Positions 8,040 to 20,115 of a stretch of DNA of 40,318 bases are shown one piece after another. Made by a program: the position numbers and the translations under genes. Within the stretch, counting starts at the first letter, position 1, and each line of letters opens with the position of its first letter. The stretch lies in the IMG/VR virus record IMGVR_UViG_3300042503_001061, positions 1 to 40,318 of that record; one strand, written 5' to 3'. Origin of the DNA: a virus. Below the pieces are notes generated by a model. That model made no database searches. It was not told the origin of the DNA and saw nothing but the letters and a program-made list of their open reading frames with translations.

Positions 8040-8061
8040 ATCATAGCATATAGAGCTGACA
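8040..8061 (-). promoter_or_regulatory. Degenerate copy of the recurrent promoter
   Basis: Minus strand: TGTCAGCTC (two mismatches to TGTCAGACC), four bases, then TGCTATGAT, in the exact spacing of the other copies. The conserved upstream region (AATCACGGGAA, TTACGA, TGTCAA, then GCCGACA near 8138) is also present. Confidence 0.6.
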
Positions 8062-8141
8062 TTTGTCAAATATTCCCGTGATTTTTTATATTGGTTCGTA
8101 ATACTTGACATATATTATTTTATATGATATTGTCGGCACAT

Positions 8142-8388: not shown

Positions 8389-8604
8389 TCAGTTTTCATC
8401 ATAGTTGTCAAGTTGGATTGGTTCAGGCACTTCCGCCTTGTATCCCTCTGTCATTTTGTAGTGCCACCTCAACCAGTTATGCAAACGCACTTCTGAATTG
8501 GGTGTAAGCAGATTTGCGGTCTGGTGTGCTAGGTCAATAACATTAGTCCTTTCATCTGAAAAAATGTCTGCTATCTTTTTGGCTTTAGTTCTGTGTTCGC
8601 TCAT
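8389..8604 (-). CDS. Small hypothetical protein, leaderless
   Basis: 71 residues, helical, with a basic N-terminus (MSEHRTKAKKIADIF) and a tryptophan-rich middle (LHNWLRWHYKMTEGY). The start codon lies six bases after TAGGAT of the recurrent promoter, so no leader is made. Function unknown. Confidence 0.75.
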   Translation of the reverse strand: MSEHRTKAKKIADIFSDERTNVIDLAHQTANLLTPNSEVRLHNWLRWHYKMTEGYKAEVPEPIQLDNYDEN

Positions 8605-8610
8605 TGTTCA

Positions 8611-8632
8611 ATCCTATCATAGAGGTCTGACA
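8611..8632 (-). promoter_or_regulatory. Recurrent promoter, copy 1
   Basis: TGTCAGACC, four bases, TGATAGGAT on the minus strand, then six bases to the ATG at 8604. It begins two bases past the preceding stop codon, with no room for a conventional -35 outside the coding region. Confidence 0.75.
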
Positions 8633-8634
8633 CT

Positions 8635-8841
8635 TTACCACTTGGCAAGGTCGTTTCCGTATTCATCTGTTAAGTTTAAGTTATCTGGTGTGGAGAATAC
8701 TTCAAGGACGTGTTCCTTAATGTACTCCAGGATAGATTCAACTGTGGCTGGCTGTCCAGTAGAATCCTGGACCACTGCTACAAGTTCATCATTAACTGTA
8801 TAGATATGCTTCTTCATGATCTCAATTGTTTGTGGTAACAT
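8635..8841 (-). CDS. Small acidic hypothetical protein
   Basis: 68 residues with a mixed beta start (KHIYTVNDELVAVVQDS) and an acidic C-terminal half. GGGAGGT sits at good distance from the ATG. Coupled by TAATG to the gene before it. The recurrent promoter of the next gene begins right after its stop. Confidence 0.75.
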   Translation of the reverse strand: MLPQTIEIMKKHIYTVNDELVAVVQDSTGQPATVESILEYIKEHVLEVFSTPDNLNLTDEYGNDLAKW

Positions 8842-9011
8842 TATTTACCTCCCAACCTATCAAGACTATCTTCAAGTGCTTCTATGTATGTGTCTATGAC
8901 ACCCTCTAGATTAACTAAGACTGCTAAGGTTAATTGGTCCTCATCTTGCATTAAGGCACCTTGCAGATTAGTAATGGTATGTTTAATAAACTTGTTAATC
9001 TCTTTATCCAT
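8841..9011 (-). CDS. Small acidic helical protein
   Basis: 56 residues (begins MDKEINKFIKHTITNLQGAL), acidic and probably a single helical unit. Both ends join neighbours through one-base TAATG overlaps, which makes the call reliable despite its size. Its 3' end supplies the GGGAGGT ribosome site of the next gene. Confidence 0.75.
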   Translation of the reverse strand: MDKEINKFIKHTITNLQGALMQDEDQLTLAVLVNLEGVIDTYIEALEDSLDRLGGK

Positions 9012-9445
9012 TACCAGTTCCTGTCATCTAGAATGTGATCAATGCCAGCATCTACGGCTTCATAGAATGTGTCATAGATTTCTCCCATATCTTCATTGTG
9101 TGCAAACACTTCCCACCAAGGATTCATACGATAGATTTCAAATCCACTATTACTAATAGTTTTAATAAACTGCAGCAACTGAATATCGTCATTGATACCC
9201 TCTGCCTCTAGATCATCTGAATATCTAACAATTGTTGCACACTCATCAGTTAGTTCACCATTAACTAATTCTGGTAGTGTTAAGTGCATCTCACCACCAC
9301 GCTCAACCTCAACCACACGGTCCAAGTATGTGATAGTTGCATAAGACTCATAGCCCTCCTGCCAAACATAAAACTCTGGCATCTGCTTGGAGGTAGGAAT
9401 AGTCTGTGTGTATTCTACTGTTACGCCTTCTAAGTTCATACCCAT
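9011..9445 (-). CDS. Acidic hypothetical protein
   Basis: 144 residues, strongly acidic, beta-rich N-terminal half (GVTVEYTQTIPTSKQMPEFY) and an alpha/beta C-terminal half (FIKTISNSGFEIYRMNPWWE). Two in-frame ATGs lie six bases apart; the second (9439) is also possible because AGGA precedes it. Stops in a TAATG junction. No recognised domain. Confidence 0.75.
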   Translation of the reverse strand: MGMNLEGVTVEYTQTIPTSKQMPEFYVWQEGYESYATITYLDRVVEVERGGEMHLTLPELVNGELTDECATIVRYSDDLEAEGINDDIQLLQFIKTISNSGFEIYRMNPWWEVFAHNEDMGEIYDTFYEAVDAGIDHILDDRNW

Positions 9446-9448
9446 ATC

Positions 9449-9685
9449 CTATACTGTTTTCTTAGATAAGTCAAGTCTTGTCAGGTTCCAGGCTAAAAGT
9501 TCTTCTAGCCTCAAATATTCTGTCTCTACACCAAGATCATCTTTAACATCTTCCCAACGTCCACTAGTTTTATTGTATGCAGCACCGTGAACTTCTCCAA
9601 AGTTTAATTCAGTAGTTTCTGCATCAACCATAAAAGCTCCCCAATCCTCATCATAAACTACTACCCAATGATATTCGTAACTCAT
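9449..9685 (-). CDS. Small acidic hypothetical protein
   Basis: 78 residues, acidic and aromatic (MSYEYHWVVVYDEDWGAFMV), ending in a leucine-rich helix (YLRLEELLAWNLTRLDL). Starts inside the stop of the upstream gene (ATGA overlap). Function unknown. Confidence 0.75.
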   Translation of the reverse strand: MSYEYHWVVVYDEDWGAFMVDAETTELNFGEVHGAAYNKTSGRWEDVKDDLGVETEYLRLEELLAWNLTRLDLSKKTV

Positions 9686-9870
9686 ACTCCCACTTCCTTA
9701 AATGTATCTACTACTACTTGACATACTCCGTCTAGCACTTCATCACTCATTCCGTCAAGGAAAGTCATTAGATTTTCCTGCAACTGTTCTACAACTAATT
9801 TCATTCTTTCCAACTCTTCTTTATCTAATTTCAGCACATCAAAGTGCACTTCATCTTGCCAGGTATTCAT
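9682..9870 (-). CDS. Small helical hypothetical protein
   Basis: 62 residues, acidic and almost entirely helical with a heptad-like stretch (LDKEELERMKLVVEQLQENL), so a short coiled coil is likely. Four-base ATGA overlap with the following gene. Confidence 0.7.
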   Translation of the reverse strand: MNTWQDEVHFDVLKLDKEELERMKLVVEQLQENLMTFLDGMSDEVLDGVCQVVVDTFKEVGV

Positions 9871-9871
9871 A

Positions 9872-10054
9872 CTAATCCCTCTCGTGTACGATTACGTCTT
9901 GTAGGTACATAACTTCTGGGTCAATCTTGTAACTATTAATTAGGTGTTGTCTTGCTTGTTCAATAACAAACTCATCAGTTGGTCTTTCATCAAAAGAAAC
10001 ACTTGTGATCATTACCATAGACTCTAATACAAACTCTACGTTGTATTCATACAT
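9872..10054 (-). CDS. Small hypothetical protein
   Basis: 60 residues, beta-rich start (MYEYNVEFVLESMVMITSVS), then a helix and a short strand. Tightly packed: one base separates it from the next gene, and TAATG joins it to the one before. Confidence 0.7.
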   Translation of the reverse strand: MYEYNVEFVLESMVMITSVSFDERPTDEFVIEQARQHLINSYKIDPEVMYLQDVIVHERD

Positions 10055-10281
10055 TAGTTAATCTCCACTTCTAATCCGTGATACTCTAAAGAAATCATTG
10101 TCTGTTCTAAGTCAGCAGAGTCGTCACACTCATCATAGTAGCCAAGGTTCTTAAAATGATTCCAAGCATCATCATTATCAAAATCAGGATTGTCTGCTAG
10201 ATAAGATTCCCAATCTTTCTGATCTATCTTCATTGACCATTGTGATTCAAAAGTTCCCTGAAAGGTTGCTGTCAAATACAT
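10054..10281 (-). CDS. Small acidic hypothetical protein
   Basis: 75 residues rich in Asp and Glu with several aromatics (WESYLADNPDFDNDDAWNHF). Such acidic small proteins are common in phage early regions and some mimic DNA; that role is only a possibility here. Confidence 0.72.
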   Translation of the reverse strand: MYLTATFQGTFESQWSMKIDQKDWESYLADNPDFDNDDAWNHFKNLGYYDECDDSADLEQTMISLEYHGLEVEIN

Positions 10282-10538
10282 TACACTATCTCCAGTCTGT
10301 TCTTGGCAAAGAATAGGTCTGTGCCGTCCTCATCTTTAATACTAATCTGTGCAGGTACATCAAACTTATCAAGGAAAAGGTGGTGTTCAATCTGCCATTC
10401 TTGATCTTTAACAAACTCAATCATAGCCTCATGTGAAATAGGGTGTCCATGAATACCATACTCACCTGTTGCCAACATCATCTTAATTAATGCTTCCTCT
10501 GAATAAATAACTTCTGTGGTTGCTACTAAATACGTCAT
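10281..10538 (-). CDS. Small hypothetical protein
   Basis: 85 residues, mildly acidic, alpha/beta (MTYLVATTEVIYSEEALIKM). One-base overlaps with both neighbours place it in the middle of a coupled operon running from 10705 to about 8635. Confidence 0.72.
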   Translation of the reverse strand: MTYLVATTEVIYSEEALIKMMLATGEYGIHGHPISHEAMIEFVKDQEWQIEHHLFLDKFDVPAQISIKDEDGTDLFFAKNRLEIV

Positions 10539-10705
10539 TACTTTTTACCTCTGATAATAATTTGTACCATTTCTTCTGTGTGATAAAAATGCTTTACAAA
10601 CTTGTAAGCAGTTTCCCATTGTTCTAATTCGATACCACCAACATTATGCAGTTCAACAAAATCATCTGCTAGTGTTTGTAGTAATGGATTGTCTGTGTCA
10701 ATCAT
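10538..10705 (-). CDS. Small helical hypothetical protein, first gene of its operon
   Basis: 55 residues (starts MIDTDNPLLQTLADDFVELH). A longer frame reaches back to 10849, but that extension runs through the recurrent promoter and its upstream region. The start at 10705 has AAAGGAC at proper distance and a leader of about 30 bases, so it is preferred. Confidence 0.68.
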   Translation of the reverse strand: MIDTDNPLLQTLADDFVELHNVGGIELEQWETAYKFVKHFYHTEEMVQIIIRGKK

Positions 10706-10734
10706 TTCTGTCCTTTTGTAGGTTGATACTGTGT

Positions 10735-10756
10735 ATCCTACCACATAGGTCTGACA
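10735..10756 (-). promoter_or_regulatory. Recurrent promoter, copy 2
   Basis: TGTCAGACC, four bases, TGGTAGGAT. A long conserved upstream region follows out to GGTCGGC (about 10830-10836), with two TTTACGA repeats and TTGTCAA. It drives the operon starting at 10705. Confidence 0.75.
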
Positions 10757-10851
10757 TTTTATGCAAGTCCCCATGATTTCCGTGAAAATTTCGTAAAGAT
10801 CGTAAAGGTTGACAACTACATTGTTTTGTGGTCGGCAAGCTTTGGGCATAG

Positions 10852-10880
10852 AAAAACCCCCTGAAGGGAAAACAGGGGGT
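10852..10880 (-). terminator. Rho-independent terminator
   Basis: Minus-strand stem CCCCCTG/CAGGGGG with a nine-base loop, followed by TTTTTCT. It closes the unit ending with the gene at 10895. Confidence 0.9.
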
Positions 10881-10894
10881 GTCTCTATTTATTA

Positions 10895-11056
10895 CTAGCG
10901 AACTGCTACATAAGGTAGTTCACGCTCACCGTTTTTCATCTGACGCTTAGACACGTTATCCACAAAGTGTCCGTTAGCATCTCGCACAACTACACGCTGG
11001 CTCTTACCAAAACGTGTGTTCCACTTTTCTTCTGCAATGAATAGTTTCTTTGCCAT
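10895..11056 (-). CDS. Small basic hypothetical protein
   Basis: 53 residues, basic and beta-rich (MAKKLFIAEEKWNTRFGKSQ, then RVVVRDANG), with the look of a small SH3- or OB-like nucleic-acid-binding protein, though no family is recognised. The leader has AACCTAATAGAAAAGAGA, related to leaders of neighbouring genes. A strong terminator follows its stop. Confidence 0.7.
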   Translation of the reverse strand: MAKKLFIAEEKWNTRFGKSQRVVVRDANGHFVDNVSKRQMKNGERELPYVAVR

Positions 11057-11128
11057 TTCATTTCTCTTTTCTATTAGGTTGGTGGACAGTTTAGTGTGGT
11101 GTCCAGCACTTCCTACCTACTAGGAAAT

Positions 11129-11620
11129 CTAGTATCGTTCGTCTATTGAATCAATGTCTGCATCAAATTCTTGAATCTCATACTTAGATTCATTTGATTC
11201 GATTGTAATGTCAAAGTCATAGACACTTAAATCAGAAGCATCTTCATTGACAGGAATAGAAACTGTTGCCTTGATTGTTACATTGAATTCAACTTCAACT
11301 TCCTTGGACAAGTCAATACCAAAGATGTTTGCAATTTCAGTTGCGTGTTCTTCGCCAATCTCATCAAAGTTCTCAACAAGATAATCTTTTAACTTGTCTT
11401 GTGCTCTTGAGTTACGGTTGTTAGTTTCTTGTACTGCCTCTAGTCTCCAGTAAGTTCTAGAAATGTCGTCTGCATTTTCTGTTTCAAACTTTGAGTCTGA
11501 CGGTGTACCGTAGTAGTAACCCTTTCGGACAACAATAGTTGCCTTTGGGTCATACTCTGGCTTGTATTCTGTTATGGTTGCTGGTATGCCAAATGTTGGC
11601 TCTCCTGTGGTAAACTCCAC
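11129..11620 (-). CDS. Acidic hypothetical protein
   Basis: 163 residues, acidic, with beta-rich halves; the C-terminal part alternates hydrophobic and charged residues (EVEFNVTIKATVSIPV). The start is GTG with GGAG eight bases upstream (CCTACAAGGAGAATAACGTG). The preceding DUF1281-like ORF ends two bases before it. Function unknown. Confidence 0.75.
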   Translation of the reverse strand: MEFTTGEPTFGIPATITEYKPEYDPKATIVVRKGYYYGTPSDSKFETENADDISRTYWRLEAVQETNNRNSRAQDKLKDYLVENFDEIGEEHATEIANIFGIDLSKEVEVEFNVTIKATVSIPVNEDASDLSVYDFDITIESNESKYEIQEFDADIDSIDERY

Positions 11621-11621
11621 G

Positions 11622-12389
11622 TTATTCTCCTTGTAGGTTGTTTGTTGATACTAGTGTATCAGAGAGGTCTGACATTTCTTGCCATTCCTCCAGTTCGTTA
11701 TCCCACCTGTATTTTGTAGTATCTACAGGGCAATCTTCATAGCCGTTCTCTGGGTCTCCATACTCACAGATGCATTCCTTATCTCTATCTTTGTAGTCAG
11801 CGTGGGACATTGGGAAATCATACTCATCACAGGCAATGTCTTCTCCAGCCTTGAATGTGCAAGAACCACCCCAACCAGTCTCCTCCTCATACTCATAGTC
11901 AAACTCAAGAGTTGGGTATTGTTCTGATAGTTTTAGTAGAGCCTCTCCAACAGGACTCCAAGCGGTTTCAAAGTGATACATAACAGAACCATCATCATTA
12001 ACAGTTTTAATAGTATTAGGATACTCATTGTCATCAGATACACATACGTCCCATTTAGTTCCCCAGTTACGGCAGTTCCAATGATACCAGTCTTGGTCTT
12101 CACGCATAGAGCGAACAAACTCTGCCATAAATTCTTCACCATCAAGTTGCTTCTTAGTAAAGACTTCTTTTTCATAGTATGATTCAAGGTCTGTTGGTTT
12201 TACAATGTTCCAAAAAGCAAATACAGGATTGTTGTATTCTTCAAAGTCAGCAACCTTTGTGTACTTACCATCAACAAACTTATGAACAGGGTGGTGCATA
12301 GTGAATGGCTGGTTAAGTTGTTCAACCATCTTATCTAATTCTGATTGCTCACCTGATACAACAAGTGAATTAAATACCCAGTTTGGCAT
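11622..12389 (-). CDS. DUF1281 / Api92-like protein
   Basis: 255 residues. The start MPNWVFNSLVVSGEQSELDK and the later FAFWNIVKPTDLESYY and NWGTKWDVCVSDDN match the Api92-like ferredoxin-fold family found on plasmids and phages. The biochemical role is unknown. An acidic, cysteine-containing C-terminal extension (ECICEYGDPENGYEDC) may bind metal. The last 17 or so residues are encoded by the promoter and ribosome site of the next gene, so the C-terminal tail may be a by-product of that overlap. Confidence 0.85.
   Translation of the reverse strand: MPNWVFNSLVVSGEQSELDKMVEQLNQPFTMHHPVHKFVDGKYTKVADFEEYNNPVFAFWNIVKPTDLESYYEKEVFTKKQLDGEEFMAEFVRSMREDQDWYHWNCRNWGTKWDVCVSDDNEYPNTIKTVNDDGSVMYHFETAWSPVGEALLKLSEQYPTLEFDYEYEEETGWGGSCTFKAGEDIACDEYDFPMSHADYKDRDKECICEYGDPENGYEDCPVDTTKYRWDNELEEWQEMSDLSDTLVSTNNLQGE
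11653..11674 (-). promoter_or_regulatory. Recurrent promoter inside a coding end, copy 3
   Basis: TGTCAGACC, four bases, TGATACACT. It lies inside the last codons of the DUF1281-like ORF and would drive the GTG-started gene at 11620. Confidence 0.7.
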
Positions 12390-12419
12390 TTGTTCTTCTT
12401 TCTAGTAGGTTATGATTAC

Positions 12420-12441
12420 ATCATAGCAGATAGGTCTGACA
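12420..12441 (-). promoter_or_regulatory. Recurrent promoter, copy 4
   Basis: TGTCAGACC, four bases, TGCTATGAT, with the long upstream region out to GCCGACC (12504-12510). The leader carries AACCTACTAGAAAGAAG before the ATG at 12389. Confidence 0.75.
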
Positions 12442-12508
12442 TTTTCTGGTGATTCCCGTGAGTATTTCTTAAGTGTCGTAACAAGAGCTTTGGATCTTAA
12501 CGTGCCGA

Positions 12509-12544
12509 CCCAATTTCCCAACTTTGTCAAGTCAGGAAACTGGG
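12509..12544 (-). terminator. Hairpin after the DUF932-like gene
   Basis: CCCAGTTTCC can pair with GGAAATTGGG with one mismatch, directly past the stop at 12555. The loop contains TTGACAAAG. No T-run, so termination efficiency is uncertain. Confidence 0.5.
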
Positions 12545-12554
12545 TGTGTTGGAG

Positions 12555-13550
12555 TTAGACCTCAGCCAACTCACGCACAATGGATAGCAACTTATTCTTT
12601 TCTGCATTTACAACAGGGTCAAAGCCACTAGCACCCATTAGGATACTTTCCTTGTTTTCACTACGGGCAGAGCGATACCAGTCTAAGCGTTCTGTTAGTG
12701 CATTGTAAGCACCCCAAGCATTACCAGCAATCATTCCGTTAGTGTCACCACCATAGATTTCATCTAGCAATTCAATCTTGTTTTCCCACTTAGTCATAGC
12801 ACCTCTAGTGTCCTTGTCTGGCATTGGGTAAGCGGTTGCAACAATTTCAGCAAACTTAGACTTAGTGATTTCCTTTTCAATCATAGCCTTAGCCATAACT
12901 TCAAACTCATCAATGTAAGTGTTAGCAAGACCAAGTGCTTGACGAGCCTGTGCAACACGTCCGTCTAATGACTGTGTGTGACGTAACTTGAAAGACTGCT
13001 TAGCACCCTTGCGGAATACTGCGGTGTGAGTATTCATACAGGTCATACGGATTGGAGTAACAGTTGCTTGAACAGCACTAGAACCATCGTGGCTTGTAGA
13101 GATAGCAAGGTAATTCTTAACTACGTCTGCAACACCTGTTGGGTCAAGTATGGTTTCACGCTCAAGTGCTAATGCACCAAAGACAAGTCTACCTTGCTTT
13201 AGAGAACCAGCAACTTCCCAACGTCCACCGTCAAGCAAGTTATCACCAAATGCAAATAGTTCTTCATTCTGCAATACCTTGTAACGCTCACCTACAACAG
13301 ATAAAACATCTGGATGCTTGTCTGCTGGATGATTACGAACAACAAGAAAGTTAGACTTTACTGATGTGTAGTTTTCAGGTAGTGCAACATCTTCAAGACG
13401 TACATCCCAGTTATCAAGGTTTGCTAGTTCTAGCATTTCTGATGTGGTCACTTCATTTTGGAATACAGTTCCAAGTTGGTGGTAGGCAGGTACACGCAAG
13501 GAAGCATAAGAAGCCTTGCCGTTTACAATTTCAATTTGGTCAATAGACAC
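12555..13550 (-). CDS. DUF932 / TIGR03299-like phage-plasmid protein
   Basis: 331 residues from a GTG with AAAGGA seven bases upstream. A longer frame starting at 13604 (MSDP...) is rejected because that ATG lies within the promoter motif. Recognisable family features are PAYHQLGTVFQNEVT near the start, VVGERYKVLQNEELF, ISTSHDGSSAVQATVTPIRM and CMNTHTAV. These proteins are common in phages and plasmids and abundant in early regions; their function is not established. It has its own promoter and a hairpin at its end. Confidence 0.88.
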   Translation of the reverse strand: MSIDQIEIVNGKASYASLRVPAYHQLGTVFQNEVTTSEMLELANLDNWDVRLEDVALPENYTSVKSNFLVVRNHPADKHPDVLSVVGERYKVLQNEELFAFGDNLLDGGRWEVAGSLKQGRLVFGALALERETILDPTGVADVVKNYLAISTSHDGSSAVQATVTPIRMTCMNTHTAVFRKGAKQSFKLRHTQSLDGRVAQARQALGLANTYIDEFEVMAKAMIEKEITKSKFAEIVATAYPMPDKDTRGAMTKWENKIELLDEIYGGDTNGMIAGNAWGAYNALTERLDWYRSARSENKESILMGASGFDPVVNAEKNKLLSIVRELAEV

Positions 13551-13581
13551 GTTTTTTCCTTTGTTAGTGTTTGATAAGATT

Positions 13582-13603
13582 ATCATAGCATAGGGGTCTG
13601 ACA
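13582..13603 (-). promoter_or_regulatory. Recurrent promoter, copy 5
   Basis: TGTCAGACC, four bases, TGCTATGAT. Upstream conservation extends to GCCGACC (13680-13686), next to the tRNA 3' end. Drives the DUF932-like gene. Confidence 0.75.
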
Positions 13604-13694
13604 TTTACCAAACTTATTTAGTGTAATTTCCTGTGAATTCGTAAGCATTTCGTAATTGTTATATTGCTGTTATAAAGCTGCCGACCCGATTTTG

Positions 13695-13768
13695 CGATCT
13701 GTATGGGACTTGAACCCACAACCTCTACCGTGACAGGGTAGTGCTCTAACCAATTGAGCTAACAGACC
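13695..13768 (-). tRNA. tRNA-Asp (GTC)
   Basis: Full cloverleaf: acceptor GGTCTGT/ACAGATC with one G-T pair, D arm GCTC/GAGC, anticodon stem CTACC/GGTAG with loop CTGTCAC (anticodon GTC), and T arm GTGGG-TTCAAGT-CCCAT. The discriminator is G and CCA is not encoded. It lies alone between protein genes. It may supplement Asp decoding for the many Asp-rich small proteins; that is inference. Confidence 0.95.
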
Positions 13769-13866
13769 TTATGGTAAGCAGTTTATAGTCTGAGTATGGT
13801 GCTTAGGACTGTCCCCTTTATTTTACCTGCGTGGCTGTGGCAGGTTTTGGTTTCGGATGTAACCTA

Positions 13867-14352
13867 CTACCAAGATGATTGGTATTCAAAGCCATCAAAT
13901 CTACTTTCAAGACAACGATTAATAATCTCAATGGTTTCATTCAAACCAGCATAGTAGTATTCATCATAAGTAGTTGAACCAAAAAAGAATCCTGCACCTG
14001 TTGGCAATAAATCTTCTGCCAATTCTTTATGTGCAAGAACTTCAATGCAGGTTGCTTTTAATTCTTCTAACTGTTGACGGGTTACATAGTATGAACCACA
14101 GTTATCTTCACCGTCTTGAACATTATCAACAAACCATTGATGAATCTGATTAGCCTTACGCCAGTAACCCATTGGGAAATCAATAGAGATGCCAGCAAAG
14201 CCTTGCTTGTCAATAACATCTTCCATTTCAAATGCTTCAACAATTTTCTTAAATGTTTCATTAGGTGTGTCAAGAATGTCACCATTCTCATCACGACCCC
14301 AATCGGTGCGTGAAATGTATTCACTTGCACGAAGATACATATCTAGTCCCAT
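13867..14352 (-). CDS. MGLDMYL-type phage protein
   Basis: 161 residues. The start MGLDMYLRASEYISRTDWGR is typical of a widespread, uncharacterised phage and bacterial family that also has a GYWRKANQIHQWFV segment and a closing TYDEYYYAGLNETIEI segment. The frame extends four codons further, but GGAG stands eight bases before the ATG at 14352. The leader carries TACCTACTAAAG. The tRNA-Asp lies downstream. Function unknown. Confidence 0.82.
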   Translation of the reverse strand: MGLDMYLRASEYISRTDWGRDENGDILDTPNETFKKIVEAFEMEDVIDKQGFAGISIDFPMGYWRKANQIHQWFVDNVQDGEDNCGSYYVTRQQLEELKATCIEVLAHKELAEDLLPTGAGFFFGSTTYDEYYYAGLNETIEIINRCLESRFDGFEYQSSW

Positions 14353-14382
14353 TGTGGACTCCATTCTTTAGTAGGTAAGTTT

Positions 14383-14404
14383 ATCTTATCAGATAGGTCT
14401 GACA
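14383..14404 (-). promoter_or_regulatory. Recurrent promoter, copy 6
   Basis: TGTCAGACC, four bases, TGATAAGAT; drives the gene at 14352. It follows the terminator of the 14456 gene with no long upstream region. Confidence 0.75.
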
Positions 14405-14412
14405 ATTTGTGT

Positions 14413-14444
14413 GGGTGGGGTGCAAGGGTAAAAACACCCCACCC
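14413..14444 (-). terminator. GC-rich hairpin terminator
   Basis: Perfect 10-bp stem GGGTGGGGTG/CACCCCACCC with a 12-base loop, just past the stop at 14456. No T-run, but the stem is strong. Confidence 0.7.
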
Positions 14445-14455
14445 AAGTCAATTAA

Positions 14456-14614
14456 CTACTTAACAGTAGTCCAACGGTCTTGACCGTTCACATCAAGTTT
14501 GATACGCAAAGTACCATTCTTGTTTTCCTTAACTTCTGTTACGGTTCCAGTTACAGCAGACTTCTGCGTGGTGAACTGTGAGCCAACAGTTGGGGCTTGG
14601 ATTGTGTTTTCCAT
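14456..14614 (-). CDS. Small beta-rich protein
   Basis: 52 residues (begins MENTIQAPTVGSQFTTQKSA), predicted as a small beta barrel with VTGTVTEVKENKNGTLRIKL strands; an SH3/OB-type fold is plausible. The longer frame from 14671 starts inside the promoter motif and is rejected. GAGAAG precedes the ATG, and a strong hairpin follows the gene. Confidence 0.72.
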   Translation of the reverse strand: MENTIQAPTVGSQFTTQKSAVTGTVTEVKENKNGTLRIKLDVNGQDRWTTVK

Positions 14615-14648
14615 TTGCTTCTCTTTTCTATTTGTTGTTGATGTTATC

Positions 14649-14670
14649 ATCATACCAGAGGGGTCTGACA
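14649..14670 (-). promoter_or_regulatory. Recurrent promoter, copy 7
   Basis: TGTCAGACC, four bases, TGGTATGAT, with upstream conservation to GTCGGC (14747-14752), including TTGTCAA 15 bases from it. Confidence 0.75.
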
Positions 14671-14761
14671 TTTTTGCAGGATTCTGGTGATCTTTTCCAT
14701 GTGACCTTAATCACTCTCGTAAAGGTTGACAAACCAATACTTTTGTGTCGGCGGTCTTGCC

Positions 14762-14977
14762 TCAGTCAAACTGAAGCAAAGACACACTTTCATTATCTAG
14801 TAGGGAATAGCATAACTCTTCATCTTCAAAGATATCTAAGAAGAATAAATCATATCCTTCAGGAGTTGGCTCTGTGCGAGTAATGCAAACAATATGATTG
14901 TCTGGAAGCTTTACTATGTCGCCAGGCTCAATAGTCATTCCAACTAATTTATCTATTTCTTTATATTCGGTAATCAT
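14762..14977 (-). CDS. Small acidic hypothetical protein
   Basis: 71 residues from the ATG at 14977 (MITEYKEIDKLVGMTIEPGD). The pattern MTIEPGDIVKLPDNHIVCIT suggests a small beta-barrel domain. It overlaps the small membrane protein upstream by four bases (ATGA). A TTG at 14986 is a less likely start. Confidence 0.68.
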   Translation of the reverse strand: MITEYKEIDKLVGMTIEPGDIVKLPDNHIVCITRTEPTPEGYDLFFLDIFEDEELCYSLLDNESVSLLQFD

Positions 14978-15129
14978 AGTTTCCAATCATAGGTTTTGTA
15001 TTTGTCAAGTTCTGATGCTTCGTTTATGTCACTATCTATTTTATCTTCAAGCCAACTAAGTTTAGAAATTAAACCTATCACGAAACCAAAAGCAAATAAC
15101 ATAGCAAGTATACCAAAAAATAATTTCAA
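14974..15129 (-). CDS. Small single-pass membrane protein
   Basis: 51 residues from a TTG start next to the preceding stop (TAGTTG): a hydrophobic helix (LFFGILAMLFAFGFVIGLI) then an acidic cytoplasmic-looking tail (LEDKIDSDINEASELD). The four-base overlap with the following gene supports translation. Confidence 0.6.
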   Translation of the reverse strand: MKLFFGILAMLFAFGFVIGLISKLSWLEDKIDSDINEASELDKYKTYDWKL

Positions 15130-15192
15130 CTATACACTTTCTCTCAATCGTAGATACTCAATGTAAATCTTATCTGATGCCATTTCTGACAT
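15130..15192 (-). CDS. Possible 20-residue leader peptide
   Basis: MSEMASDKIYIEYLRLRESV starts ten bases after the -10 box of promoter copy 8 and stops directly against the TTG of the membrane gene, so it could couple its translation. Too short to be certain. Confidence 0.35.
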   Translation of the reverse strand: MSEMASDKIYIEYLRLRESV

Positions 15193-15202
15193 TAGTTTGT
15201 CT

Positions 15203-15224
15203 AGTATAACATAAGGGTCTGACA
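15203..15224 (-). promoter_or_regulatory. Recurrent promoter, copy 8
   Basis: TGTCAGACC, four bases, TGTTATACT, in the gap after the 15249 stop. Confidence 0.72.
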
Positions 15225-15248
15225 TTTCTTGCTTACGATTAAATAGTC

Positions 15249-15431
15249 TTATAGCCATTCTGCTAAATCTCCATCTGCAATTTCTGAATAGTCCATACCA
15301 TTTGCTTCTGCAATGGCATCCCATACATCTGATTCGGTGTAGTTTCCATTTGGATACCAACGATTAAGAATTTCTTGTGCTGTCATATTTTTATCTTGTA
15401 AATCTTCTAAATACCTTTTACTATTACTCAT
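15249..15431 (-). CDS. Small hypothetical protein
   Basis: 60 residues with a basic N-terminus (MSNSKRYLEDLQDKNMTAQE) and an acidic C-terminus. TAATG overlap with the preceding gene. The repeated 'alternation of helix and short loop' around WYPNGNYTESDVWDAIAEA may be a small helical domain; family unknown. Confidence 0.72.
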   Translation of the reverse strand: MSNSKRYLEDLQDKNMTAQEILNRWYPNGNYTESDVWDAIAEANGMDYSEIADGDLAEWL

Positions 15432-15769
15432 TACGCAAATACCTTTCCATACAACTCAACTGAATTACCATTATCTAAATCAGTAAGTAGATTGTTTACT
15501 AAATCTAATACAACTGTCTTATCAAAATTGTTAGCAATTTCTGAACGGCTAATTGCATAGATACCAAAACCAGTTTCATCTAATACATAGTCTTTCATTA
15601 AGTGTGAGATAACCATACGAGTAAAGTATGAGGTATCACCCTTGCGTGGTTGTGCGTGTATCAATGCACCAACCAAATCATCTTGCCAATTAGATTCACC
15701 CCAATGTGAATAAAGATTAACTAGACTGTCTGTTCCGTCATCAAATACGAAATTAATTCTTGCACCCAT
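15431..15769 (-). CDS. Hypothetical protein
   Basis: 112 residues, alpha/beta (MGARINFVFDDGTDSLVNLY, then SHWGESNWQDDLVGALIHAQ). Proteins of this kind with a beta start and the SHWGG-like segment are common in actinophages but uncharacterised, as far as I recall. AGGT lies before the ATG and the gene upstream ends one base before it. Confidence 0.75.
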   Translation of the reverse strand: MGARINFVFDDGTDSLVNLYSHWGESNWQDDLVGALIHAQPRKGDTSYFTRMVISHLMKDYVLDETGFGIYAISRSEIANNFDKTVVLDLVNNLLTDLDNGNSVELYGKVFA

Positions 15770-15770
15770 T

Positions 15771-15887
15771 TTAGTAACCTGCTTCCGTTAGCATTTTGTT
15801 AATTGCTTCTAGTTCTTCTGTTGATAATTTTGCGATGGCTTCATCATCAATGACACCCTCAAACAAATCTTTAATTAGTTCTGACAC
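15771..15887 (-). CDS. Small acidic helical protein
   Basis: 38 residues (MSELIKDLFEGVIDDEAIAK plus a second helix) from a GTG with AAGGAGAG in front. First gene behind promoter copy 9, followed after one base by the 112-residue gene. Confidence 0.65.
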   Translation of the reverse strand: MSELIKDLFEGVIDDEAIAKLSTEELEAINKMLTEAGY

Positions 15888-15913
15888 TTCTCTCCTTAGT
15901 AGGTTATGCTGAA

Positions 15914-15935
15914 AGCATACCACAAAGGTCTGACA
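15914..15935 (-). promoter_or_regulatory. Recurrent promoter, copy 9
   Basis: TGTCAGACC, four bases, TGGTATGCT; the upstream region reaches GCCGACC (15998-16004) with TTGTCAAG in between. Its leader has AACCTACTAAGGAGA (15891-15905), which contains the ribosome site. Confidence 0.75.
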
Positions 15936-16028
15936 ATTTCTAGTGCTTTCCGTGATTTTTTCTTAAGTTTCTTAACTTGACAAATAGCTTTAACTGTGCC
16001 GACCACCTTTCGGTGGGTCTGTCAAGTT

Positions 16029-16313
16029 TTACTCGTCATCCCAATCTAATTCTATTAGCCAAGCATCTAAACGATGGTTATCTGCAATTGCTTGAGCAGG
16101 TGCAAAATTACTACCACGATACTCAATACCTTGTGGTAATTCAATTTCAGCAAAGTAATCTTCGTTCTGAATTGCATTAATAGCATCTATGCAAGGCTGT
16201 ACCATTGACGATGGAACGGGTGGATAGAAATTGTATTGTAGGTGCAAATTGATCTGTTGCTCAATTGGCATAGTATCCATAGCGGATAACTCTGTAGCAA
16301 AGTTTAATCCCAT
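16029..16313 (-). CDS. Hypothetical protein
   Basis: 94 residues (MGLNFATELSAMDTMPIEQQ), acidic at the end (LIELDWDDE), alpha-helical with a proline-rich middle. CCTACTAGGAGA, shared with the end of the upstream ORF, provides its ribosome site. Function unknown. Confidence 0.75.
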   Translation of the reverse strand: MGLNFATELSAMDTMPIEQQINLHLQYNFYPPVPSSMVQPCIDAINAIQNEDYFAEIELPQGIEYRGSNFAPAQAIADNHRLDAWLIELDWDDE

Positions 16314-16314
16314 T

Positions 16315-16449
16315 TTATTCTCCTAGTAGGTTTTTGTATTTTGACTTACGGGTGTATTTCTTTTTGTTACGGTGCTTAGCGGATGCATTACTCCTACGCA
16401 ATTCTAGTCTTGCCCTAAGTTGCTCAGGGCTTGCAGGTAATTTCATCAT
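16315..16449 (-). CDS. Small, very basic protein, leaderless
   Basis: 44 residues, about one third Lys/Arg (PEQLRARLELRRSNASAKHR then KKKYTRKSKYK). It could bind nucleic acid. The first ATG lies seven bases after TAAGAT of promoter copy 10, so it has essentially no leader; its stop is one base before the next ATG. Confidence 0.65.
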   Translation of the reverse strand: MMKLPASPEQLRARLELRRSNASAKHRNKKKYTRKSKYKNLLGE

Positions 16450-16456
16450 AGGATTA

Positions 16457-16478
16457 ATCTTAGCAGATAGGTCTGACA
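16457..16478 (-). promoter_or_regulatory. Recurrent promoter, copy 10
   Basis: TGTCAGACC, four bases, TGCTAAGAT. The motif starts at the base after the stop codon of the 16479 gene. Confidence 0.75.
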
Positions 16479-16715
16479 TTATTCCTCCCCAAACATTTCA
16501 TCCCAACAAGTACCACAGATACCTGTAATGAAACGCTCACGCACATCTGCATCATAAGAAGACAATACAGTTTGGGCTAATCCACCTTGGTGGTATGCAA
16601 ATAGTTCAGCGGAAGAAATTGAAACGGTTTTGGTTTCATTGCAAGTTGGGCAAGGGTGTGATGTAACAACGTAGCGTTCGTTCATCACTTTCATTGGGTT
16701 GTGTAAAGTGAACAT
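16479..16715 (-). CDS. Zinc-ribbon protein
   Basis: 78 residues with two CxxC knuckles, HPCPTCNETKTVSIS and ICGTCWDEMFG, separated by a helical region (SSAELFAYHQGGLAQTVL). This arrangement is common in actinophages and ends with the same CWDxMF element. A zinc-bound adaptor or nucleic-acid contact is likely; the target is unknown. Its leader carries TACCTAC and AAAGGGAC. Confidence 0.82.
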   Translation of the reverse strand: MFTLHNPMKVMNERYVVTSHPCPTCNETKTVSISSAELFAYHQGGLAQTVLSSYDADVRERFITGICGTCWDEMFGEE

Positions 16716-16745
16716 AGTGTCCCTTTCGTTTGTAGGTATGGTTAT

Positions 16746-16767
16746 ACCTTACCACAAGGGTCTGACA
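16746..16767 (-). promoter_or_regulatory. Recurrent promoter, copy 11
   Basis: TGTCAGACC, four bases, TGGTAAGGT, with conserved upstream region to GCCGACC (16840-16846). Confidence 0.75.
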
Positions 16768-16878
16768 ATTTCTAGGTTTTCAGTGAAATTCTCGTGGTTT
16801 TTTTAATAGTGTCGTAACTTGACTTTGATGGGAATTCGTGCCGACCAGATTTTATTAGCTTTGTCAAGCGGTGTGCCA

Positions 16879-17412
16879 CTATGAGGCACTACCCCTAAAC
16901 ACAATCCAGATCAGGGCTTGCATAACTCTAGGTGTCATTTTCATTTCGCTTGCAACTATTTCAACAGCCTTAGATAATTCTCGGTATTGTGTTTTGTTAG
17001 GTGCATTAGTTTCTAATCCTGCTGCATAACACATCCACACATCAATTGTTATTGCATTCTCATCACCTGCAATTGCTCTTGCGAATGCATTAGTTTTTTG
17101 ACCTTTAAGTGCATCGAATCCCATTGTTAAAGAATTTTCTGCCATTAGCAAATTATTTTTTAGTCCTGCAGGTTTTCCACCATGAGCAAATTCTAATGCT
17201 TGTGCCATGTTGCGTGACCAACGCTGACGAGGTGAGAATGCAGAAATTATGCTTGCAGTATTTTCTACTGTCACGTTTATGTTTCGTGATTGGTAAATTC
17301 TAATTAGATCATGAGCCAACAATTCTGCATCTGCATACCATTGGGTTGCCTGTTCAATTTGTGCAGGTGTTGCGGTAGTAGCAATGTTACGGTATAAGTC
17401 GGTTGCGTTCAT
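16879..17412 (-). CDS. Conserved actinophage protein, possible HhH-GPD-like fold
   Basis: 177 residues, helical. Family-like segments are IISAFSPRQRWSRNMAQALE, MGFDALKGQKTNAFARAI, TIDVWMCYAAG and ALIWIVFRG. The order 'GQK.. F.. I.G... TIDVW' resembles helix-hairpin-helix DNA glycosylase-type folds, but no catalytic Lys/Asp pair can be assigned by eye, so an enzymatic role is not claimed. Such proteins recur in actinophage early regions. Own promoter (copy 12) and a TACCTACTAAG leader. Confidence 0.75.
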   Translation of the reverse strand: MNATDLYRNIATTATPAQIEQATQWYADAELLAHDLIRIYQSRNINVTVENTASIISAFSPRQRWSRNMAQALEFAHGGKPAGLKNNLLMAENSLTMGFDALKGQKTNAFARAIAGDENAITIDVWMCYAAGLETNAPNKTQYRELSKAVEIVASEMKMTPRVMQALIWIVFRGSAS

Positions 17413-17442
17413 GTCGTTCTCATTTCTTAGTAGGTATCTCTG

Positions 17443-17464
17443 ATACTAGCATAAGGGTCTGACA
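17443..17464 (-). promoter_or_regulatory. Recurrent promoter, copy 12
   Basis: TGTCAGACC, four bases, TGCTAGTAT. Upstream: AATCACTGGAA, TTACGAC, TTGTCAA and GGTCGGC's complement at 17537-17543. Confidence 0.75.
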
Positions 17465-17543
17465 ATTTTATTAAATTCCAGTGATTTTCTGGTGTTGTTT
17501 TAATCGTGTCGTAACTTGACAAAAGCTGAAAAATCGGGTCGGC

Positions 17544-17579
17544 AAAAAAATCTGGGAATGTCAAACGACACGCCCAGAA
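17544..17579 (-). terminator. Rho-independent terminator
   Basis: Minus-strand stem TCTGGG/CCCAGA, a 16-base loop, then seven T. It ends the operon that starts at 18222. GCCGACC of the next cassette follows the T-run at once. Confidence 0.85.
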
Positions 17580-17594
17580 ATTTTAGTTTAGTTT

Positions 17595-17663
17595 TTAATC
17601 AGTGAGTTTGAAAACCACATACAGAGTTAGCAAAAGAAAAGTGATGATCAAAAAATTTTTCAT
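17595..17663 (-). CDS. Tiny membrane peptide
   Basis: 22 residues, nearly all one hydrophobic helix (MKNFLIITFLLLTLYVVFKL). It starts in a TAATG overlap with the 50-residue gene and precedes the terminator, so it fits the operon despite its length. Confidence 0.5.
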   Translation of the reverse strand: MKNFLIITFLLLTLYVVFKLTD

Positions 17664-17815
17664 TAGTATTCACCACGCAACACAAACGCAAACGAATGCG
17701 AACCTAAATCAAAAATTAAAGATGTGTTTTTTCTGTTTAGTTTTTTACTGTAGTAATTTGAAAAACTAATTCCAATTACGAAAGTTCCGTCAATTTTATT
17801 GTGAACGAATCTCAT
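17663..17815 (-). CDS. Small basic hypothetical protein
   Basis: 50 residues (MRFVHNKIDGTFVIGISFSN), beta-rich and basic, with one-base TAATG overlaps on both sides. Function unknown. Confidence 0.62.
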   Translation of the reverse strand: MRFVHNKIDGTFVIGISFSNYYSKKLNRKNTSLIFDLGSHSFAFVLRGEY

Positions 17816-17997
17816 TACACACCTACCGCATCTAAAAACTTTTCTTCATCAAAGTTTGGATTATCGCTTGCAAATAAATCTGCAAAATCTTCTGCGATAC
17901 TTTTTACAAGTGAAGAAATCAAAATGTTGTCTTGTCCTGCTTCTGCATAAGAATTAAAAATCTTTGCAGTTGCTATGTAGTCTTTGCGTGTCATCAT
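17815..17997 (-). CDS. Small conserved phage protein
   Basis: 60 residues: TRKDYIATAKIFNSYAEAGQ followed by IAEDFADLFASDNPNFDEEK. This helical pattern, with a 'DYIATAKI' start and a 'FA..F..DNP.FD...F' end, is frequent among phages of many hosts. Function unknown. AGGA at the end of the previous gene serves as its ribosome site. Confidence 0.78.
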   Translation of the reverse strand: MMTRKDYIATAKIFNSYAEAGQDNILISSLVKSIAEDFADLFASDNPNFDEEKFLDAVGV

Positions 17998-18222
17998 TTA
18001 TTTTCCTGCCTTTGCATTTTGAAAGAATTGTAGTTCAAGATTTTGCTCTTGAGTTTTTTTGTCTAGTATTGCTTGCACATCTGCAAGTGGCTTTGCCCAT
18101 TCAATAGATACACTTAGAATAGTTGAAAGCACAAGATGCTCATTTGTTGGAAGTGTTGGATACTTTGCATTTTGCAAAGCCTTGTAAGACTCTAGAAAGT
18201 CTTTGGTGTTTAGTGTAGTCAT
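17998..18222 (-). CDS. Small helical hypothetical protein
   Basis: 74 residues from the ATG at 18222 (MTTLNTKDFLESYKALQNAK); a GTG at 18231 overlaps the ribosome site AAAGGTGG and is less likely. Rich in helix and ending in KAGK. First gene behind promoter copy 13. Confidence 0.72.
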   Translation of the reverse strand: MTTLNTKDFLESYKALQNAKYPTLPTNEHLVLSTILSVSIEWAKPLADVQAILDKKTQEQNLELQFFQNAKAGK

Positions 18223-18259
18223 TGTGACCACCTTTCGTTTTTGTTAGTTTGTTAAGTTG

Positions 18260-18281
18260 ATACTATCAGAGAGGTCTGACA
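18260..18281 (-). promoter_or_regulatory. Recurrent promoter, copy 13
   Basis: TGTCAGACC, four bases, TGATAGTAT, just after the stop of the 18286 gene. Confidence 0.75.
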
Positions 18282-18285
18282 GTTT

Positions 18286-18417
18286 TTAGTGACCTAATCT
18301 GTCGCAACTGGTTAGGTCTTGCTCTACATAGTAGACACAATAGCCACAGATAGATTCATCACAGGCAGGGCAGGATTTCCACTCTGACCACTCATCACAG
18401 TTTTCGCATCTATTCAT
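18286..18417 (-). CDS. Small zinc-finger protein
   Basis: 43 residues with three CxxC pairs: CENC, CPAC and CGYC, in RCENCDEWSEWKSCPACDES. Probably two zinc sites. TAATG overlap with the preceding gene. Function unknown. Confidence 0.72.
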   Translation of the reverse strand: MNRCENCDEWSEWKSCPACDESICGYCVYYVEQDLTSCDRLGH

Positions 18418-18626
18418 TAGTAGCAACTCCCTGCGGTACAATGTGCAAGTGAATGACCGATACTACGCTTACCCTTGTAAAGGCAGTTATCGTGAGAGAT
18501 GAAAGGCATCTCATTCTTTGCCAATGCATTTTGGCAAATCTCACATTCGTCATAGTAGCGAATGGTATGGGTGAAACTATTTCCTGCGGGAGTAGTTACG
18601 TTTTCAATTACATCTAAGTAAGTCAT
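18417..18626 (-). CDS. Small Cys/His-rich protein
   Basis: 69 residues; ECEIC, then HDNC, and a terminal HCTAGSCY could make one or two metal sites. AGAGGT lies seven bases before the ATG. Co-transcribed with the zinc-finger gene that follows it. Confidence 0.72.
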   Translation of the reverse strand: MTYLDVIENVTTPAGNSFTHTIRYYDECEICQNALAKNEMPFISHDNCLYKGKRSIGHSLAHCTAGSCY

Positions 18627-18658
18627 AGTGACCTCTTTCTTTTTTGTTTAGTAGTTTT

Positions 18659-18680
18659 ACTTTAGCATAAGGGTCTGACA
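18659..18680 (-). promoter_or_regulatory. Recurrent promoter, copy 14
   Basis: TGTCAGACC, four bases, TGCTAAAGT, shortly after the stop of the 18684 gene. Confidence 0.75.
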
Positions 18681-18683
18681 GTT

Positions 18684-18842
18684 TTACCCGTAGACACGCT
18701 TAGTCAATTCTTTAATTTTGATTTCCCAATAGTCCACCATTAGTTGGTGTGCAGGGAATTGCAGGGCGGTAGCCTTAGCATCTTCTAGTTGTGCCATAGC
18801 ATCTAGTAGTAGGGATAGATTCTTGATTTTAGTGTAAGCCAT
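18684..18842 (-). CDS. Small helical hypothetical protein
   Basis: 52 residues (MAYTKIKNLSLLLDAMAQLE), two helices joined by a short loop (QFPAHQ). AAAGGT precedes the ATG. Its mRNA would carry a leader of about 90 bases with a short ORF. Confidence 0.7.
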   Translation of the reverse strand: MAYTKIKNLSLLLDAMAQLEDAKATALQFPAHQLMVDYWEIKIKELTKRVYG

Positions 18843-18859
18843 TTTGAGACTACCTTTCT

Positions 18860-18916
18860 TTAGTGTTGAAACTTATTTGCTAGGCTCACCCTTTCGGGAT
18901 TATTTGCTAGGCTCAT
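18860..18916 (-). CDS. Possible leader peptide with an internal repeat
   Basis: An 18-residue ORF, MSLANNPERVSLANKFQH, in the leader of the 18842 gene. SLAN appears twice because a direct repeat (GAGCCTAGCAAATAA) is present twice, flanking CCCGAAAGGG. It may regulate the following gene or be a chance ORF. Confidence 0.35.
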   Translation of the reverse strand: MSLANNPERVSLANKFQH

Positions 18917-18937
18917 TCTCAACTGCTTTATGATTTC

Positions 18938-18959
18938 ATCTTAGCAGGGGGGTCTGACA
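18938..18959 (-). promoter_or_regulatory. Recurrent promoter, copy 15
   Basis: TGTCAGACC, four bases, TGCTAAGAT. First leftward promoter next to the DnaA-box cluster. Confidence 0.75.
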
Positions 18960-19017
18960 GTTTTGCCCATTTTAGGGTATGTCTTAGATGAACATTAGGT
19001 AAACAATAATTCACAAC

Positions 19018-19237
19018 TTATCAACAGCCTGTGTATAACTCTGTGGATAACATGTGTATAACCTGTGGATATCCTGTGAATTTTCACTGTGTTTTTAATC
19101 ATAATCGTAAGCCTGTGGATAACCTGTGGAAAACGGGTCGGCGGATTTTTTTATCCACAGCTTGGGGATAACTTGTGGATAAGTACCTGTGGATAACCTG
19201 TGGATTGTGGATAACGTGTGGATAAGGCTGTGGATTA
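19018..19237. other. DnaA-box cluster, putative replication origin
   Basis: Seven perfect DnaA boxes (TGTGGATAA at 19042, 19114, 19174, 19188, 19206 and 19217; TTATCCACA at 19151) and at least six near matches (TTATCAACA 19018, TGTGTATAA 19030 and 19053, TGTGGATAT 19064, TGTGGAAAA 19125, TGTGGATTA 19229). Many are spaced 11-12 bases apart, i.e. one helical turn. The cluster lies between leftward and rightward gene blocks and is flanked by imperfect inverted repeats (GGTAAACAATAAT near 18998 and ATTATTGTTCACC near 19235). Confidence 0.8.
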
Positions 19238-19283
19238 TTGTTCACCAAATGTTTACCTACAACACGCCCTATTTGGCAGAAAT

Positions 19284-19305
19284 TGTCGGTGGGGTGTGTT
19301 AGGTT
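19284..19305 (+). promoter_or_regulatory. Degenerate recurrent promoter facing right
   Basis: TGTCGGTGG, four bases, TGTTAGGTT: the same spacing as the other copies but a diverged nine-mer. It would drive the 28-residue gene at 19334. Confidence 0.5.
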
Positions 19306-19333
19306 TAGACTATTAGATAAGAGGAGGTAAGAA

Positions 19334-19420
19334 ATGGAAATTACAACATTAGATGCAATCGGACTAGCAATAGTTGCATTGTACAGCGTGTTTGTTGGTT
19401 GGTTCATCATCAACCAATAA
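19334..19420 (+). CDS. Tiny membrane protein
   Basis: 28 residues, MEITTLDAIGLAIVALYSVF then VGWFIINQ: one membrane helix. AGGAGG stands five bases before the ATG, a much better ribosome site than most here, which supports real translation. Confidence 0.65.
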   Translation: MEITTLDAIGLAIVALYSVFVGWFIINQ

Positions 19421-19436
19421 GCACCCACCCAAAAAT

Positions 19437-19458
19437 TGTCAGACCCCTATGGTAAGTT
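19437..19458 (+). promoter_or_regulatory. Recurrent promoter facing right, copy 16
   Basis: Perfect TGTCAGACC, four bases (CCTA), TGGTAAGTT on the plus strand, upstream of the rightward gene at 19491. Its orientation follows the gene, which argues that the motif is directional. Confidence 0.75.
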
Positions 19459-19490: not shown

Positions 19491-19601
19491 ATGAATGAAT
19501 TAGCATTAGAACAAATCACTAAGGCAACCTGCCTAGTGTGCGGTGACAAGTTAGCACCGTTTGAAATTGAATCCTCTATCTGCATTATGTGTGAGGACTA
19601 A
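19491..19601 (+). CDS. Small zinc-ribbon protein
   Basis: 36 residues with CLVC and CIMC pairs about 20 residues apart, a minimal zinc ribbon. AAAGG lies upstream of the ATG. Followed after two bases by the next gene. Confidence 0.68.
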   Translation: MNELALEQITKATCLVCGDKLAPFEIESSICIMCED

Positions 19602-20099: not shown

Positions 20100-20115
20100 T
20101 GTGACCTACATCACA
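20100..20115. promoter_or_regulatory. Crp/GlxR-type binding site
   Basis: TGTGACCTACATCACA fits the CRP half-sites TGTGA-N6-TCACA perfectly and the actinobacterial GlxR form TGTGAnnTAnnTCACA at every fixed position. It lies about 70 bases upstream of the TATAAT serving hsp20. Confidence 0.7.

Follow-up and report, generated by a model that had tools for sequence, protein, structure and literature searches.

The IMG/VR virus record IMGVR_UViG_3300042503_001061, analysed here as a stretch of 40,318 nucleotides (the window), contains a block of small genes in which the nine-mer TGTCAGACC recurs, followed by four bases and the sequence TGnTAnnnT. This arrangement raises the question of whether the copies serve as promoters and which factor reads them. 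An earlier note on this DNA had counted 16 copies, 15 on the minus strand and one on the plus strand, with an invariant four-base gap and a preference for T at the third of these bases. All 16 were recovered as exact matches at the positions it gave, the gap is kept without mismatch at 16/16 sites, and the third spacer base is T at 15 of the 16. When up to three mismatches were allowed, the window yielded 21 matches compared with 3.98 +/- 1.99 in shuffled sequences. The assertion that the window holds no further copy was off by one, as an extra nine-mer is located at 4147-4155 on the minus strand; it is not accompanied by a -10 sequence and is probably a chance occurrence.

Alignment of the 16 sites revealed that A is also conserved upstream of the nine-mer, at position -2 in 16/16, at -3 in 15/16 and at -4 in 13/16 sites, while no other upstream sequence is conserved at comparable strength. 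Because of this conserved AAA we define the box as the 13-base sequence AAAnTGTCAGACC. Relative to the predicted start it spans -32 to -20, with the nine-mer at -28 to -20, and it is separated from the -10 sequence by 7 bp.

The placement of the sites relative to start codons agrees with the earlier observation that each element is oriented towards its downstream gene. At 11 sites a usable start codon is located 48-59 nucleotides downstream, and at a twelfth, 14404, the distance is 40 or 52 nucleotides. At site 8632 the predicted start falls on the ATG itself, site 18959 would give rise to a leader of approximately 117 nucleotides, and sites 15224 and 16478 are located at the beginning of very small open reading frames (ORFs). 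The elements are as follows.

8611-8636, minus strand: promoter element (box and extended -10); predicted start at about 8604, the ATG of 8389-8604, leaderless
10735-10760, minus strand: promoter element; start at about 10728, ATG at 10705; orthologous sites in the related genomes G009, G004 and G029
11653-11678, minus strand: promoter element within the 3' end of the preceding gene; start at about 11646, GTG at 11620
12420-12445, minus strand: promoter element; start at about 12413, ATG at 12389
13582-13607, minus strand: promoter element of the DUF932 gene; start at about 13575, GTG at 13550
14383-14408, minus strand: promoter element; start at about 14376, ATG at 14352
14649-14674, minus strand: promoter element; start at about 14642, ATG at 14614
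15203-15228, minus strand: promoter element overlapped by a small ORF
15914-15939, minus strand: promoter element with a palindromic -10/start region (TATGCT-TTC-AGCATA); GTG at 15887
16457-16482, minus strand: promoter element that overlaps a small gene at its start
16746-16771, minus strand: promoter element; start at about 16739, ATG at 16715
17443-17468, minus strand: promoter element of the DUF7178 gene; start at about 17436, ATG at 17412
18260-18285, minus strand: promoter element; ATG at 18222
18659-18684, minus strand: promoter element whose AAA merges with the stop codon of the preceding gene; ATG at 18626
18938-18963, minus strand: first promoter of the leftward block; leader of about 117 nucleotides
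19433-19458, plus strand: divergent rightward promoter element; start at about 19465, ATG at 19491

The element is rigidly spaced and resembles an extended -10 promoter

The pattern AAANTGTCAGACCNNTNTGNTANNNT was used to search an uncultured viral collection, where at least 118 stretches matched. Among the matches listed in these stretches there are 411 nine-mers (copies not de-duplicated), and 402 of them are followed by TAnnnT exactly 7 bp downstream, in line with the rigid spacing noted before; since the stretches were retrieved by the pattern, each of them necessarily holds one or more conforming sites, a constraint that does not apply to some 290 other sites. The full extended -10 is present at 368 nine-mers, and a further 34 have TAnnnT at the identical 7-bp distance with the TG shifted or absent. 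Within the range of 3 to 11 bp, none of the 411 has TAnnnT at a different spacing, and several of the 9 remaining nine-mers have a near -10 sequence in the same location.

In 84% of the aligned sites an A is located 7 nucleotides past the -10; a pyrimidine stands before this A, and the leader after it is A/G-rich. The element therefore has the form of a sigma-70/sigma-A extended -10 promoter, that is TGnTAnnnT with a purine start approximately 7 nucleotides downstream, the start being predicted from sequence. Start codons are located about 52 nucleotides from the box, mostly within 46-58 nucleotides, in the five genomes compared (the window and four relatives). Together with the phasing of upstream boxes described below, the fixed spacing and the start signature support the earlier proposal that the sites are promoters, and on this sequence-based evidence the 16 sites form a promoter array.

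The proposed lack of a conserved -35 was supported, with qualifications. Most sites have no consensus -35. The AAA of the box falls at the position of the 3' half of the -35 hexamer, and about 10% of the sites (of 306 non-redundant ones, 24 at a spacing of 17 bp and 6 at 18 bp) agree with TTGACA in at least five of six positions. The window also contains a degenerate copy in which both features are combined.

8040-8069, minus strand: hybrid promoter TTGACAAATGTCAGCTCTATATGCTATGAT, with the nine-mer TGTCAGCTC, TATGAT and a consensus -35 TTGACA (8069-8064)

A coding explanation, in which ATGTCAGACC would provide a shared start codon ('MSDP..'), was rejected, since A directly precedes the nine-mer in no more than 59% of sites. 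As a separate observation, a subset of promoters (in the window 15914-15939 and 12420-12445, and many in relatives) displays a covarying palindrome, TATnnT-N3-AnnATA, over the -10/start region; of the 72 sites that have T at the relevant position, 27 show it, compared with 6.2 in shuffles (maximum 15). In addition, direct repeats like TTACGA/TCACGGGAA/TCACCAGAA with a period of about 10 bp are found upstream of the minus-strand sites 12441, 16767 and 17464, which follow long intergenic regions, and possibly represent an array for another regulator.

CRP/GlxR boxes are helically phased upstream of the promoters

Within 200 bp upstream of the 306 non-redundant sites we observed 109 boxes of the type bound by the cAMP-sensing regulator CRP/GlxR (TGTGA-N6-TCACA with at most one mismatch; see PMC3972247 for the GlxR consensus), compared with 1.8 in shuffles. 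They accompany about a quarter of the promoters in the wider family, and strict boxes genome-wide fall mainly inside the motif block, as do all 7 in genome G001. Those located between -130 and -45 group near -53, -64, -75 and -85 from the predicted start, with a period of 10.5 bp (Rayleigh p ~1e-18); the phasing persists when each downstream gene family and position is given a single vote (62 votes, p ~1e-14). This helical phasing indicates that a host-type RNA polymerase would be positioned at the predicted starts. In the window, one box occupies a position that is phased family-wide.

14700-14715, minus strand: CRP/GlxR-like box AGTGATTAAGGTCACA, centred at -65.5 from the predicted start; upstream of site 14649-14674

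No gene for a CRP-family helix-turn-helix (HTH) protein was found in 31 compared records, an absence that, like the other gene absences reported here, is weak evidence because some of the compared viral contigs are incomplete; the window itself is a 40-kb fragment. A phage CRP was rejected as the regulator on this ground, and the protein that binds the boxes is presumably that of the host. The phasing likewise bears on the idea that a single-subunit phage RNA polymerase reads the entire 26-bp element. The contiguous and rigid form of the element would suit such an enzyme, yet we regard it as barely conceivable, as the phasing implies a polymerase of the sigma/alpha type and PF00940 gave no match in a search run without a positive control.

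Apart from the array, a consensus CRP/GlxR box, TGTGACCTACATCACA, is located at 20100-20115 upstream of 20249-20656, which from our reading of the sequence we take to be a candidate small heat-shock-like gene.

The element is confined to one block of viral genomes

The earlier note had described the element as confined to the small-gene block and had proposed a search of related phages. In uncultured viral contigs the element is likewise restricted to the block: 30 large ones (55-113 kb) contain 1-12 sites each, mostly clustered in one block and all or nearly all on the same strand, and a reversed control pattern gave no match in these contigs. Of the 14 site-bearing genes of the window, 11 have an orthologue with a site, at a similar distance in nearly all cases.

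Only 4 scattered matches to AAANTGTCAGACCNNTNTGNTANNNT occur in genomes representing 84,980 species of bacteria and archaea, with about 7 expected by chance (our estimate for 18 fixed bases and 257 Gb). Among 50,697 records of isolated phages, a motif-length search revealed no full element, only partial matches in unrelated phages. Literature searches yielded only chance text matches for the nine-mer and no paper on promoters in Stanwilliamsviridae. By this distribution the element is phage-specific, its occurrence in cells not exceeding chance, and the factor that reads it is therefore probably specified by the phage.

The same result argues against the alternative that a host factor reads the nine-mer and that the early promoters are fired by unmodified host machinery, namely sigma-A, CRP/GlxR and a host spacer-binding factor. 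This alternative gains from the host-type CRP/GlxR boxes in the same promoters, for which no phage CRP gene was found, and from the homology of the block to the terminal-repeat block of Streptomyces relatives. However, with the element at chance level in cells, such a host factor would have to act only on phage DNA, and we therefore consider it unlikely.

Candidate factors encoded by the phages

The earlier note had suggested a dedicated activator, a repressor or an alternative sigma factor. The last of these, a phage sigma factor that reads the box plus the -10, would be consistent with a rigid two-part element. It is nevertheless very improbable and was rejected: sigma region 2 was detected in 0/16 records by a search that did recover its positive controls, region 4 gave only sub-threshold short matches in five of the 31 records, and the -10 has the usual extended form read by sigma-A.

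A conserved 174-amino acid HTH-like protein (G009 77964-78488) was dropped as a regulator because its equivalent directly precedes the large terminase gene and several of its relatives are annotated as terminase small subunit, although one is annotated as a putative sigma factor. A 52-amino acid beta-rich protein was rejected as an RNA polymerase factor, since its model matches Tudor/SH3-like folds weakly.

WhiB-like genes are present in 21/31 records. WhiB-like proteins bind region 4 of sigma-A in mycobacteria (PMC6282962), and a WhiB-like phage protein is by analogy a plausible candidate for a partner of the box-reading factor. As the sole specificity factor it was rejected, because the Streptomyces phage Coruscant has a WhiB-like gene without the box. 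In G009 the gene belongs to a three-gene unit (85038-85787) encoding a 75-amino acid protein, the WhiB-like protein and an 84-amino acid protein; equivalents occur in other genomes and a similar unit in Coruscant. The gene for the 75-amino acid protein and the WhiB-like gene co-occur in exactly the same 21/31 records, and given this perfect tracking their absence from the other records may reflect incomplete contigs only.

A spacer-bound activator of host RNA polymerase is the favoured reading

Three findings point to host RNA polymerase: the -10 is of sigma-A type, the CRP boxes are phased and no phage sigma gene could be detected. A factor in contact with the holoenzyme, comparable to MotA of T4, is suggested by the fixed distance and polarity, by the position of the nine-mer at -28 to -20 and by the missing -35. 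We therefore favour, with moderate confidence, a model in which host sigma-A polymerase acts with a phage-specified, spacer-bound activator on AAAnTGTCAGACC and, at some promoters, with host CRP/GlxR. In this model the polymerase with its primary sigma factor would read TGnTAnnnT and start at the A 7 nucleotides downstream, and AAAnTGTCAGACC would substitute for a consensus -35. A dedicated activator, most likely encoded by the phage, would read the box and touch the holoenzyme from the spacer, which would account for the fixed spacing. Host CRP/GlxR at helically phased class-I-like positions may boost roughly a quarter of the promoters in the family, and most sites would serve one gene each within a small-gene block that is probably early and devoted to host takeover.

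The nine-mer could instead be an operator, at which a phage repressor shuts off strong extended -10 promoters later in infection. Extended -10 promoters can function without a -35, GTCAGAC within the nine-mer is near-palindromic (GTC-A-GAC), and a subset of sites carries the second palindrome over the -10/start region. Repressor sites, however, seldom need a single polarity and exactly one spacing, as seen here in 402 cases, and the conserved flanks are asymmetric (AAA on the left, YnT on the right). We regard an operator as quite unlikely; of the activator and the repressor named in the earlier note, the rigid spacing, the fixed polarity and the missing -35 favour the activator.

Several points weigh against a spacer-bound phage activator assisted by CRP/GlxR. 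No protein has been linked to the nine-mer. A good CRP box is present at only one site of the window (14649-14674), and the phase positions at -64, -75 and -85 deviate by about 3 bp from those of classical class I promoters in E. coli. WhiB-like genes, for their part, are found in those 21/31 records and also in Coruscant, which has no box, so that WhiB cannot by itself confer the specificity. Finally, if the block enters the cell first, an activator made by the phage must be carried in the virion or be expressed from canonical promoters. Two near-perfect sigma-A promoters with TG, outside the motif set, are present on the minus strand at 21037-21008 (12/12) and 7383-7355 (11/12), and they are possible first-wave promoters.

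A tentative and rather doubtful extension of the activator model is sigma appropriation in an actinophage: a phage WhiB-like protein would keep region 4 of sigma-A off the -35, another phage protein would read AAAnTGTCAGACC in the spacer, and host CRP/GlxR would tie the early block to the cyclic AMP state of the host.

Relatives of the block and comparison with known systems

The proteins of element-bearing contigs are related to those of Streptomyces Stanwilliamsviridae. This kinship and the WhiB-like genes point to actinobacterial hosts, and the phage family thus probably infects actinobacteria. Direct terminal repeats of about 11 kb that hold 20-25 small genes have been reported for cluster BE1 phages (PMC5764925). 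Coruscant carries homologues of two block genes of the window, DUF932 and a 60-amino acid gene, within its own terminal-repeat block of small genes, and in several Streptomyces relatives DUF932 is located near the left end in two copies per genome. From this homology to the terminal-repeat block, the genes of the block are probably early host-takeover genes. Three of them are listed here.

12555-13550, minus strand: DUF932 gene; homologue in the terminal-repeat block of Streptomyces Stanwilliamsviridae
14456-14614, minus strand: the 52-amino acid beta-rich protein (SH3/Tudor-like model), the most widespread block gene besides DUF932, in 11/13 genomes
17815-17997, minus strand: the 60-amino acid block gene; homologue in the Coruscant terminal-repeat block

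The terminal-repeat arrays of Coruscant and Angela resemble the present one: the block is homologous, most small genes have an extended -10 promoter of their own and the gene at the end is divergent. They differ in having a -35 of the TTG type, spaced by about 17 bp, and other upstream elements (in Coruscant a GGCGCC palindrome), and neither TGTCAGACC nor CRP boxes were found in them. Thus, the organisation of the array is shared and the promoter code differs. As these Streptomyces phages are easily grown, the swap of a promoter code between relatives is open to study.

At the middle promoters of T4, a MotA box together with AsiA directs sigma appropriation; the box replaces the -35, often with TGn (PMC2988021). 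In both systems the -35 gives way to a phage box beside a sigma -10, and the WWWTG start of the MotA box resembles AAAnTG. The MotA box (WWWTGCTTtA), however, is mismatch-tolerant and located 12 +/- 1 bp from the -10, whereas the present box has another sequence and lies at exactly 7 bp. No relative of MotA or AsiA was noticed, although no search aimed at them was made.

In actinobacterial WhiA/WhiB promoters the WhiA motif is located in the promoter spacer. At such promoters a Wbl protein and a DNA-binding factor jointly activate transcription (PMC6282962). The WhiA motif GACAC resembles GACCY in the box, but the sequences differ and the phage element is not above chance in cellular genomes. 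The class I CRP/GlxR promoters share with about a quarter of the sites a helically phased upstream TGTGA-N6-TCACA; here its register is shifted by about 3 bp from that in E. coli and the site is joined to a phage box.

The SAS/ESAS repeats of cluster K mycobacteriophages are short, asymmetric, of one orientation, located before small non-structural genes and absent from hosts (PMC3203893), properties that the present element shares. Yet SAS occupies the ribosome-binding position, with 3-7 bp to the start codon, whereas the box is located about 52 nucleotides upstream with a -10, and a SAS-like translation element was rejected by this position.

The array provides a readable promoter code for a large uncultured phage family that probably infects actinobacteria, from which co-switched genes, transcript starts and recruitment of host CRP/GlxR can be predicted. 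It also serves as a searchable tag for this family and raises a concrete question, namely what reads the nine-mer.

Further features of the block

A tRNA-Asp (GTC) is located at 13694-13768 on the minus strand within the small-gene block. In the leader at 18873-18915 on the minus strand, a short hairpin is bordered on either side by a copy of TGAGCCTAGCAAATAA; the same arrangement occurs in L100, L105, L107, G009 (9493-9538) and others. The stem varies and remains complementary, with a mean length of 3.6 compared with 1.7 in shuffles over 23 variants. No Rfam family matched at gathering score, and this is possibly an undescribed RNA element.

Between the divergent promoters 18959 (minus) and 19437 (plus), the region 19038-19233 contains seven exact DnaA boxes TTATCCACA in addition to relaxed copies. 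The entire window has 8 such boxes compared with 0 in shuffles, and similar clusters are present near the block in several relatives. Judging by its composition, the cluster is likely a phage replication origin that would use host DnaA.

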